Under the pieces are notes generated by a model that worked only from the letters and a program-made list of their open reading frames with translations, did not search any database and was not told the origin of the DNA. The translations under genes were made by a program, and so were the position numbers. Of a DNA stretch of 26,981 nucleotides, positions 2-26,616 are shown in pieces (the first letter of the stretch is position 1; each line of letters begins with the position of its first letter). Origin of the DNA: a virus; the IMG/VR virus record IMGVR_UViG_3300033388_001660, positions 1 through 26,981 of that record. One strand, written 5' to 3'.

Positions 2-202
2 TCAGAAGGAACGCCAGTAACGCCGCCTTTTGCAACCGAGAATGAGTTGGTCGATTATCTTGTTGATCACGGCACGTTTTGGGATAACAAAGGTTATGCG
101 CGGGAAACGGCAGAAAAGTTTGTTAAAGCGGGATGGGTTCCGAGCATGATAATGACGGCAGGGAAGCTGTTTAGCGGGATTGATTCTGTGGATGCTGGTT
201 AA
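2..202 (+). CDS. conserved phage protein, C-terminal part (5' truncated by window edge)
   Basis: An open frame enters from the left edge and ends at TAA 200-202, giving 66 residues. It contains TPPFATENELVDYLVDHG, then a tryptophan-rich stretch and AEKFVKAGWVPSM. I recognise this pattern as the C-terminal part of a small phage protein common in accessory regions of Gram-negative phages; its function is not known to me. The start lies outside the window. The stop is 22 nt before the start of the next gene, consistent with one operon. The frame is clearly coding because the segment is conserved-looking and rich in aromatic and charged residues. Confidence 0.7.
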   Translation, partial: SEGTPVTPPFATENELVDYLVDHGTFWDNKGYARETAEKFVKAGWVPSMIMTAGKLFSGIDSVDAG

Positions 203-224
203 TGTTTGCGAAAATGGGGGAGTT

Positions 225-746
225 ATGAAATTTACACTAAATAAAATTAAAGAAAGGCATCCGTGTGAATCGGGGTGGAAAACATTACTTAAGTCTTTAG
301 GTAAATCAAAAGCTGACGATGAAGAATTAGAGTTAACTTACGTTTTAAAATCAAACGGAATAGAAGATGCTATTTGGTGTTTAAGATGCTTTGACTATTT
401 GGATTATTGCTTATTTTTAGCTGATGTCGCTGAAAGCGTTTTACATATTTACGAGCGAAAAAACAAGAGCACAGCCCCTCGGGACGCAATAACGGCAATC
501 AGAGAATATAAGCTAGGTAATATAAAAAAGAGCGATCTAAAAAAAGCTGCTGCTGCTGCTTATGCTGCTGATGCTGATGCTTATGCTGCTGCTGCTGCTG
601 CTTATGCTGCTTATGCTTATGATGCTGCTGCTGCTTATGCTGCTGCTGCTGCTGCTGATGCTTATGCTGCTTATGCTGCTGCTGCTGCTGGAAAGAAAAA
701 GTGGGAAGGCATCGAAAAACTATTTGTTAAGCATTTTGGAGAATAA
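225..746 (+). CDS. Ala/Tyr/Asp-repeat phage protein, resembles Imm5-type putative immunity proteins
   Basis: 173 residues from ATG 225, which has a GGGGGAG purine run just upstream; an in-frame TTG at 180 lies inside the preceding gene and lacks such a site. Residues 1-100 are globular: a CESGWKTLLKSLGK segment, then AIWCLRCFDYLDYCLFLADVAE and an ERK-rich helix. Residues 108-155 contain only Ala (36), Tyr (8) and Asp (4). A charged tail follows (KKKWEGIEKLFVKHFGE). This order (Trp/Cys-containing helical head, AIRxY segment, Ala-aromatic repeat, final W-x-x-IEKLF helix) is what I remember of phage proteins annotated as putative immunity proteins (Imm5-like), in which Ala-Ala-Trp or Ala-Ala-Tyr repeats are typical. 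Function in phages is unknown; superinfection immunity or toxin neutralisation would be inference. The family call is from memory and moderate. Confidence 0.75.
   Translation: MKFTLNKIKERHPCESGWKTLLKSLGKSKADDEELELTYVLKSNGIEDAIWCLRCFDYLDYCLFLADVAESVLHIYERKNKSTAPRDAITAIREYKLGNIKKSDLKKAAAAAYAADADAYAAAAAAYAAYAYDAAAAYAAAAAADAYAAYAAAAAGKKKWEGIEKLFVKHFGE
546..689 (+). repeat. GCT-rich trinucleotide repeat inside a coding region
   Basis: Forty-eight consecutive codons are only GCT (36), TAT (8) or GAT (4). Every alanine uses GCT, so the DNA is an imperfect (GCT)n microsatellite with single-base G-to-T or C-to-A interruptions. Unit changes of 3 nt by slippage would keep the frame. The tract encodes residues 108-155 of the surrounding gene. 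Shifted by one base the same DNA reads as a Leu/Met tract, which is only a shadow. Confidence 0.95.
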
Positions 747-748
747 CC

Positions 749-943
749 TTGAAAACAAAAGTGATGAAAAATAAGAATTTTTACGCCGTACTACCGGACA
801 CTAAAGAAGCTTGTGAGGAGTGGATAATTCAAAGGTTAAGAGAAGACCACCCAACCAAGCTAAAACACGCCAGAATCGGCCCTGCGGAAGTAACACGCCA
901 GGATTTAGATATGGCTGGTATTTTATTAAAACGCAGCCCGTAG
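749..943 (+). CDS. small hypothetical phage protein
   Basis: 64 residues starting at TTG 749, two bases after the stop of the repeat gene, with GGAG (738-741) seven bases upstream. An ATG at 764 (residue 6) is the alternative but has no better site. The protein is basic and contains an EEWIIQRLREDHP helix and a C-terminal GILLKRSP. I do not recognise a domain. The overlap-style packing and the good ribosome binding site argue that it is real; the non-ATG start makes it a little less certain. Confidence 0.6.
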   Translation: MKTKVMKNKNFYAVLPDTKEACEEWIIQRLREDHPTKLKHARIGPAEVTRQDLDMAGILLKRSP

Positions 944-2709: not shown

Positions 2710-3017
2710 TACCCGCACTTGCCACTCTGACCTCAGATATTGAGATAAGACAAGAAACCATTGCTTTGCTTGATGAGCGTGACTCATTAAAAGCTGATAT
2801 GAGGCGCTTAAGAACAGAAGAAGCACGTATAATCAGGATAACGGCAGAAATAAAAAGAAAGTCTCGTATTGAGCTGGAAAGGCTTGTTGAAATAGCCAAC
2901 GGCCTAACGGAGAAGCTTGCTCCGCTGACTAATCGCAGAATAGGTCTGACAGTGGGGGAGGATGCAAAATACGTGACTAAAGTGGCTCATAATCGCTCTC
3001 AAAGGATGCGAGGGTGA
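2706..3017 (+). CDS. coiled-coil hypothetical protein
   Basis: 103 residues from ATG 2706 (ATGA overlap), with GGAAGGGG upstream. An upstream in-frame TTG at 2676 lies inside the previous gene and is less likely. Residues 14-75 are strongly charged and helical (DIEIRQETIALLDERDSLKA, then a long Arg/Glu helix), predicting a coiled coil. No catalytic motif is visible. It stops over the GTG of the resolvase gene, so it is co-translated with it; whether it acts with it is unknown. Confidence 0.7.
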   Translation: MIPALATLTSDIEIRQETIALLDERDSLKADMRRLRTEEARIIRITAEIKRKSRIELERLVEIANGLTEKLAPLTNRRIGLTVGEDAKYVTKVAHNRSQRMRG

Positions 3018-3346
3018 AGATAAACATTAAGCCTCTGAGTATAAACACTGCATTTCAGGGTAAAAGATTTAAAACCCATGCTTATAAGGCTTATGAGAAA
3101 GAGGTCATGCTGAAATTAAAGCCGATGGAAATACCTGATGGAGATTTGGAAATAGCCATGCAGCTAGGCTTTAGCAATAAACTAAGCGACATCGATAACC
3201 CGGTTAAACCGTTTATCGACATTTTACAGAAATACTACGGATTCAATGATTCACGGGTTTACGCCTTAGTTTTAATGAAAAGAATCGTACCAAAAGGGCA
3301 AGAGTATATTAGCTTTTCAATACATAAATGCTTTAAGGGGGAATGA
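3014..3346 (+). CDS. rusA: RusA-family Holliday junction resolvase
   Basis: 110 residues from GTG 3014, overlapping the preceding stop. RusA enzymes are dimeric endonucleases that cut four-way DNA junctions and, in phages, resolve branched DNA before packaging. The diagnostic core is SDIDNPVKPFIDILQ: D59, D61, N62, K65 and D69, followed by D79 in GFNDSRV. This matches the family's D-x-D-N-x-x-K arrangement with a second-strand Asp about 18 residues on. Length (about 110-120) fits. The N-terminal KPLSINTAFQGKRF is the usual substrate-side strand. Position close to terminase genes is typical. Confidence 0.88.
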   Translation: MKINIKPLSINTAFQGKRFKTHAYKAYEKEVMLKLKPMEIPDGDLEIAMQLGFSNKLSDIDNPVKPFIDILQKYYGFNDSRVYALVLMKRIVPKGQEYISFSIHKCFKGE

Positions 3347-26365: not shown

Positions 26366-26393
26366 ATTATAGTCTTAATCGTGCATTATGCAA
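26366..26393 (-). promoter_or_regulatory. candidate minus-strand promoter
   Basis: On the minus strand, TTGCAT (26393-26388), a 16-base spacer and a perfect TATAAT (26371-26366) precede the 45-residue gene, placing a start near 26359. The -35 overlaps the stop region of the upstream DUF551-like gene. The -35 is weak but the -10 is consensus. Confidence 0.45.
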
Positions 26394-26616
26394 TGTCGGC
26401 CGGCTTATCAGGAAGGCAATCAGGGATTTTCCAGTGGGTGACTGTGAAATTTTCTACATCAACAGGCCATCCGTAGGTGTACCAAGCATTTTCAACTTTA
26501 TCAAATACGCCAAATGTTCTGTTCATGCAAACGCCATCCCAAAAAGCAAGTTCAACTTCTTTGTGTTTGGCACTATCCAGCTTTGTTTTATCCGTAACCG
26601 CTATCCATTCACTCAT
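26386..26616 (-). CDS. DUF551-like phage protein
   Basis: 76 residues from ATG 26616 (minus), with GGGAGAG upstream. It starts SEWIAVTDKTKLD and ends with VENFTVTHWKIPDCLPDKP. The W-I-x-V-x-D near the start and the V-T-H-W-x-x-x-P-x-x-P near the end are the signature of DUF551, a small domain frequent in phages and prophages of Gram-negative bacteria, with unknown function. It is part of a minus-strand operon with the next two upstream genes. Confidence 0.8.
   Translation of the reverse strand: MSEWIAVTDKTKLDSAKHKEVELAFWDGVCMNRTFGVFDKVENAWYTYGWPVDVENFTVTHWKIPDCLPDKPADIA

Follow-up and report, generated by a model that had tools for sequence, protein, structure and literature searches.

The gp54 protein of mycobacteriophage Tweety is built of conserved ends around 48 AAxx repeats, in which the third codon positions are invariant (PMC2884959). 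In Tweety mutants that overcome the defences of the Phrann or MichelleMyBell prophages the number of repeats has risen or fallen, changes that reviews interpret as the tuning of a counter-defence protein (PMC9262239, PMC8549241). A cellular case of an intragenic variable repeat is TolA of E. coli, whose repeats differ in number from strain to strain, with effects on phenotype (PMC3477136). The Imm5 proteins have been predicted to confer immunity in polymorphic toxin systems; their family name, too, expresses a prediction (Zhang et al. 2012).

The gene described here lies near the left end of a 26,981-base IMG/VR virus record, the whole of which was analysed and is referred to as the window. 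The original prediction, made from the sequence alone, had presented its product as an Imm5-like phage immunity protein with a tract of only Ala, Tyr and Asp. It missed the main point: the tract is a hypervariable DNA repeat that is common to several unrelated head types. The explanation favoured here, with a probability of roughly 0.4, is that of an early, dispensable accessory protein, counter-defensive or immunity-like, in which a head and a tail are joined by a slippage-tuned tract that retunes the target.

Gene organisation and neighbourhood

Relatives align from MKFT, so the ATG at 225 is the likely start rather than a TTG upstream at 180. The protein has four parts (Table 1). In profile searches of the N-terminal segment, residues 1–57 matched no separate Pfam family over the threshold, and residues 1–61 alone gave nothing meaningful. 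Promoter and terminator scans returned scores no better than those of shuffled sequences.

Table 1. Features of the gene and of its surroundings in the window
Feature	Position	Strand	Basis
Upstream ORF end, cut by the contig edge; no PHROG match	2..202	+	ORF and PHROG search
G-rich GGGGGAG just 5' of ATG 225, possible ribosome-binding site with short spacing	216..222	+	Read from the sequence; tentative
CDS of 173 aa: N-terminal segment, Imm5-like helices, A/Y/D tract, C-terminal helix	225..746	+	ORF list; PHROG_18326 (E 3.8e-25); relatives
Residues 1–57, conserved N-terminal segment TLNxI..PC..GW.KLL..LGK...DDE...ILxSNGIEDAIWCLR	225..395	+	Relatives; pLDDT 95–98
Residues 58–107, Imm5_like helices FLADVAESVLHIYE...PRDAITAIREYKLGNI	396..545	+	PF21805 match at 63–109 without the tract
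Residues 108–155, A/Y/D-only tract; 48 codons GCT/TAT/GAT, (GCT)n being a CTG/CAG-type imperfect repeat	546..689	+	Codon count; Tandem Repeats Finder; low AlphaFold2 confidence at 126–152
Residues 156–173, conserved charged C-terminal helix KKKWEGIEKLFVKHFGE (in relatives xKWxEIExLFIKHFG)	690..743	+	Alignment of relatives; AlphaFold2
Next downstream gene, 64 aa, function not assigned; no PHROG match	749..943	+	PHROG search
RusA-like Holliday junction resolvase	3014..3346	+	phrog_34 (3.5e-4); phrog_11573 (6.9e-38)

An AlphaFold2 model made with 99 family rows had a mean pLDDT of 84 and a pTM of 0.77, with values mostly above 90 from the head to residue 125, below 50 at residues 126–152, and again above 90 for the helix at 157–171. 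The charged C-terminal helix that had been predicted was therefore modelled confidently. The head had been called helical and rich in Trp and Cys; it is indeed mostly helical, and its richness is mild, since it contains two Trp and four Cys in 100 residues.

The gene sits among small genes of the same strand, 5' of the RusA-like resolvase and of a terminase gene read by eye, and the position of the resolvase places it in an early/recombination block of small genes upstream of the terminase genes. In cultured phages the relatives lie near primase, endonuclease, NinB, ERF, RecT or methyltransferase genes, and a tally of 128 neighbour proteins of relatives included RecT, DnaA, DnaB, HNH, NinG and methylases; of the 43 Pfam families in that tally 25 were listed, and none of these is a toxin family. 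This neighbourhood fits an accessory early gene, and neither a toxin–immunity pair nor a gene of the virion. At the right end of the contig lies a divergent gene (26386–26616, minus strand), which may resemble DUF551.

The original prediction had also allowed for expression in the virion, an idea that found no support, since the annotated relatives are surrounded by genes of early, replication, recombination and nin type. That the protein is a component of the virion or tail fibre is highly improbable. The label 'tail fiber protein' is carried by a relative in Curvibacter phage P26059A (L198:4992-5579), but that gene sits among small early/metabolic genes, and the repeat has probably misled its annotation; the remaining annotated relatives are without exception hypothetical genes, most of them close to replication/recombination genes, and the window gene is far from the tail genes.

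An Imm5-like head

When the parts outside the repeat were searched separately, the Imm5 likeness proved to be carried by residues 1–109 and not by the Ala tract. Residues 1–109 alone matched PF21805 (Imm5_like) at positions 63–109 with 24.2 bits (3.4e-05), and the full protein scored 22.9 bits, both values lying under the curated cut-off, which is 25 bits for PF21805 and likewise for PF14423 (Imm5). The profile searches gave no match of the window protein to PF14423, and no family for the tract and tail alone. The heads of 11 of 19 family members, the window's included, match Imm5_like without their tracts; close relatives score 32–45 bits, five relatives exceed the PF21805 cut-off (L032, L046, L055, L004 and L031), and L032 exceeds that of PF14423 as well, with 28.5 bits. 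Judged by sequence, the window protein is related to Imm5_like, formally below its cut-off and thus not a formal member. The Imm5-like frame first proposed is upheld by the match outside the repeat and by the relatives over the cut-offs; the immunity function attached to it is not.

What the head has in common with PF21805 and PF14423 is a helix-pair motif, FLADVAESVLHIYE...RPRxAIxAxRxY, which matches without the tract. It differs from them in an extra conserved N-terminal stretch of ~57 residues, in the low-complexity tract that replaces the C-terminal half, in being phage-borne, and in that a toxin partner was not found. The phage family PHROG_18326, which carries no functional label, matches over residues 3–155, and its match to the head alone has an E value of 1.7e-18; the window protein is a member of this group with a Tyr/Asp-type tract, and nothing decisive sets the two apart.

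Foldseek matched the window model to relatives in the viral library, among them a protein named 'Imm-5-like domain-containing' (E 1.4e-3), and gave no fold match among the solved structures of the PDB. Several other leads were set aside. Sequence matches in the PDB were confined to designed repeat proteins, PPR designs and SMAD4 and were rejected as low-complexity, and NCBIfam gave only weak matches of the same nature; PADLOC had no match for the window protein, and its single weak match among the relatives, to BrxF (E 0.024), was disregarded. A literature search by the name Imm5_like found no papers.

If the protein were a classical Imm5-type immunity protein, it would protect the lysogen or the infected cell against a polymorphic toxin, such as a DYW-type deaminase, and the tract would be a variant of the helical C-terminal half of Imm5_like. 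The matches of relatives to PF21805 and PF14423 point in this direction, as do relatives in which the C-terminal half is helical and non-repetitive (L048, L055), and Imm5 has been listed with DYW deaminases and CdiAC toxins (Zhang et al. 2012). Because of that listing alone, the best PDB fold match of the L055 model is of interest, weak and non-significant as it is (E 1.6, prob 0.33): it is chain B of 7jtu, SsdAI, the all-helical immunity protein to the DYW-like deaminase SsdA (PMC7901873), for which the sequence searches gave no match. Such a role is nonetheless distinctly unlikely. No toxin gene was found among the listed neighbours, those in the window either having no PHROG match or being RusA; the window protein stays under both curated cut-offs and its model lacks a PDB match; and reshuffling of half the protein from one phage to a near-identical one would be surprising for immunity to one toxin, unless that toxin varies as well. 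Toxin immunity is still a rival to be taken seriously, and it and the counter-defence role favoured here are not exclusive, because a defence effector may itself be a toxin.

The tract as a DNA repeat

The claim of a tract consisting of Ala, Tyr and Asp only was exact: residues 108–155 comprise 36 A, 8 Y and 4 D. They are encoded by GCT (36 codons), TAT (8) and GAT (4), so that 48 of 48 codons end in T, an outcome with a P of about 1.6e-20 when codon usage is taken from 15 other window ORFs. The tract is therefore a tandem repeat at the level of DNA, of CTG/CAG type, and not merely an Ala-rich protein segment. The longest stretch made of three letters was 12 in the other large ORFs of the window, and at most 16 in 1000 shuffles of the window protein. 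Tandem Repeats Finder reported periods of 6, 9 and 36 nt at 546–690. A regular Ala-Ala-Tyr spacing had been proposed; the periodicity of the window tract is no better than that of shuffled tracts (P = 0.51 for non-Ala residues, 0.77 for Y). Hairpin folding of the tract DNA was not notable (z −1.6 and 0.0).

The Imm5-like head type occurs in hundreds of phages, with at least 585 relatives in one viral collection. Scans of viral contigs with the head gave 22, 36, 71 and 79 loci, the last of these scans having kept 80 of 585 confirmed stretches; they held no near-identical relative of the window, the closest head being at 75%. A scan of genome contigs with the head gave one relative only, on a MAG contig, and a plasmid scan also gave one. 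Among complete distinct members, 130 of 151 have an Ala-rich tract of at least 24 residues, with a median of 59.5, and some have a short or non-repetitive C-terminal half (L046, L049, L055, L048).

In the relatives with Trp-type tracts the repeat is strict, with a period of four residues or 12 nt and a Fourier power of 11 against 1 in shuffles. The units follow the pattern GCNGCNnGGGmN, for example GCT GCC [T/A/G]GG G[A/C]C. Two codons that specify one residue agree in 66% of cases within tracts and in 37% within heads, and between units four codons apart in Trp-type tracts, amino-acid-changing differences outnumber silent ones by 1928:294, third positions varying least. Thus a few unit variants have been duplicated and re-ordered, and the variation retained is mostly coding.

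Hypervariability among relatives

The number of repeats varies between otherwise near-identical genes of the relatives. In 16 of 17 distinct pairs whose first 60 residues are at least 95% identical, both tract and length differ, a comparison which shows where the variation falls and not how often, because identical proteins had been merged beforehand. Two loci (L121, L122) are 99.3% identical over 6.1 kb, and the sole gap between them is one 12-nt repeat unit; two others (L171, L183) are 96–97% identical around a difference in tract length of 192 nt (16 x 12); and in a third pair (L158, L165) the head DNA is 99.7% identical and the tail the same, with the tract re-ordered. Pairs with Tyr/Asp-type tracts vary too, L435 and L408 differing by three residues. 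The tracts of the cultured Vibrio phages 51E28.1, 51E28.4 and K45 are identical. One phage (G002) has eight Imm5_like matches, seven of them over the cut-off, and the copies read carry different tracts. Strain-level tract differences for this head type were seen in metagenome assemblies, and some of the length differences may thus be errors made in assembling repeats. Slippage or recombination would be the source of such change, and selection may act in favour of variation.

Repeats of CTG/CAG type and of 12 nt are naturally unstable. This instability would fit a tract that is a slippage-prone and nearly neutral helical spacer, in which case head and tail alone would be important and would do something unrelated, for instance modulate replication of the host or the phage. 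The tract sequence is poorly constrained, some members have the short or non-repetitive C-terminal half mentioned above, and the neighbours include replication and recombination genes, all of which would suit a spacer. Yet the tract stays Ala-rich and in frame in the great majority of complete members; two positions in the unit retain coding variants, with third positions remaining uniform; the same tract is found again on unrelated heads; and repeat number matters in Tweety gp54. A neutral spacer is unlikely.

Variable codons of the forms NGG or NNT at fixed places might suggest a programmed system, such as a diversity-generating retroelement. This idea, extremely improbable in our estimate, was rejected on the codon pattern: within a phage, Arg is nearly always encoded by AGG only or by CGG only, both occurring in five of the 78 tracts that use either. 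Length changes moreover accompany the substitutions, and the window tract is built of three codons, a picture that agrees with a few units being duplicated and lost. Inspection of the window by eye revealed no reverse transcriptase.

The tract on other phage proteins and the comparison with Tweety

A search of viral contigs by tract-DNA pattern, in two samples (L220–L459) and keeping heads of at least 45 residues, yielded 205 unique heads, of which 98 match the head of the window family and 26 that of Tweety. Among 84 scanned sequences without a window-family head, 14 had DUF7666, two DUF6197 and one DUF6745, in addition to unnamed clusters. Several unrelated phage domains thus carry a tract of one kind, among them at least six head types other than that of the window; the AAxx/AAY tract is common to these and the window family, whereas the N-terminal domains differ. 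Motifs of the unnamed clusters are GCTIHS..ELGVP, CMCAQGQALHLL and VCLHGAIR. It is possible, if doubtful, that AAxx/AAY tracts form a shared evolvability module of many unrelated phage accessory proteins, in which slippage retunes the defence or toxin that each head counters, the window protein being one instance of a large unrecognised class.

Like the window family, Tweety gp54 is a non-structural accessory protein in which an Ala-rich tandem repeat stands between conserved N- and C-terminal parts; the third codon positions of the repeat are uniform, and its unit number varies between otherwise identical genes, as it does here among the relatives. Tweety, Taj and Melissauren88 share an identical head of 142 aa, and their whole proteins measure 374, 302 and 254 aa, each difference being a multiple of four; because these phages were isolated and sequenced separately, such length variation is not only an artefact of assembly. 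Tweety gp54 differs in having AAxx units with G/W/Q and S/Y and no Imm5 match, and its strict 12-nt repeat has a counterpart in the Trp-type relatives and not in the window tract, which lacks a significant period. Alignment of the Tweety head with the present head by hhalign scored 9–15.5, inside the null range of 119 phage proteins and 100 shuffles, and homology to the gp54 family was rejected. Since the heads are not detectably homologous, the likeness is an analogy of construction and not of membership. TolA is more distant, being a cellular envelope protein with unrelated ends.

In the counter-defence explanation, the Ala-rich helical tract would join two conserved parts, a helical head from the Imm5/Imm5_like superfamily and a C-terminal helix, and together head and tail would bind or block a factor of the host or of a prophage, most likely a defence or toxin effector. 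Because the tract DNA is an imperfect tandem repeat, the length and order of the tract would change fast, and gain, loss or reshuffling of units in frame would alter the geometry between head and tail, or the surface presented, such that a different target is countered, as for Tweety gp54. The window protein may thus be an adjustable counter-defence protein, because a similar repeat tunes counter-defence in another phage protein; the role may carry over from gp54 through shared architecture only. Early expression, dispensability and a protein target would all belong to this explanation.

Few contingency loci of phages' own are known to us. Should the tract be a tuning device, it would represent a widespread phage means of changing counter-defence specificity through gain and loss of repeat units, and genes bearing such tracts would provide a searchable marker for new counter-defence proteins. 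The predicted Imm5 fold also gains a phage context in which it is testable.

Further observations on relatives

Tracts that are shifted in frame occur at L034:4513-5091 and L072:6001-6555, which read LPQGMPQG and LRGLRGML; these are either real slippage frameshifts or assembly errors. At L038 and G002 (a phage of 44,281 bp), eight Imm5_like matches fall within one phage, five of them forming a near-tandem block, and the tracts diverge. The reading frame of the relative at L003:5001-5927 continues into a C-terminal Peptidase_M15_3 domain (3.7e-08), which may reflect fusion to an endolysin-like enzyme, and the relative in the three Vibrio phages with identical tracts (L062) is a protein of 375 aa with a further C-terminal domain, encoded 3' of a transposase gene.

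In Erwinia phage phiEt88 (L061:6001-6519) the N-terminal part of the relative is unannotated, and the record instead shows an overlapping ORF of the opposite strand there. In Vibrio phage 1.154.O (L199:5358-5446, NVP1154O_52) the tract of the relative has been labelled as CRISPR spacers, an evident artefact of its coding repeat of 12 nt.
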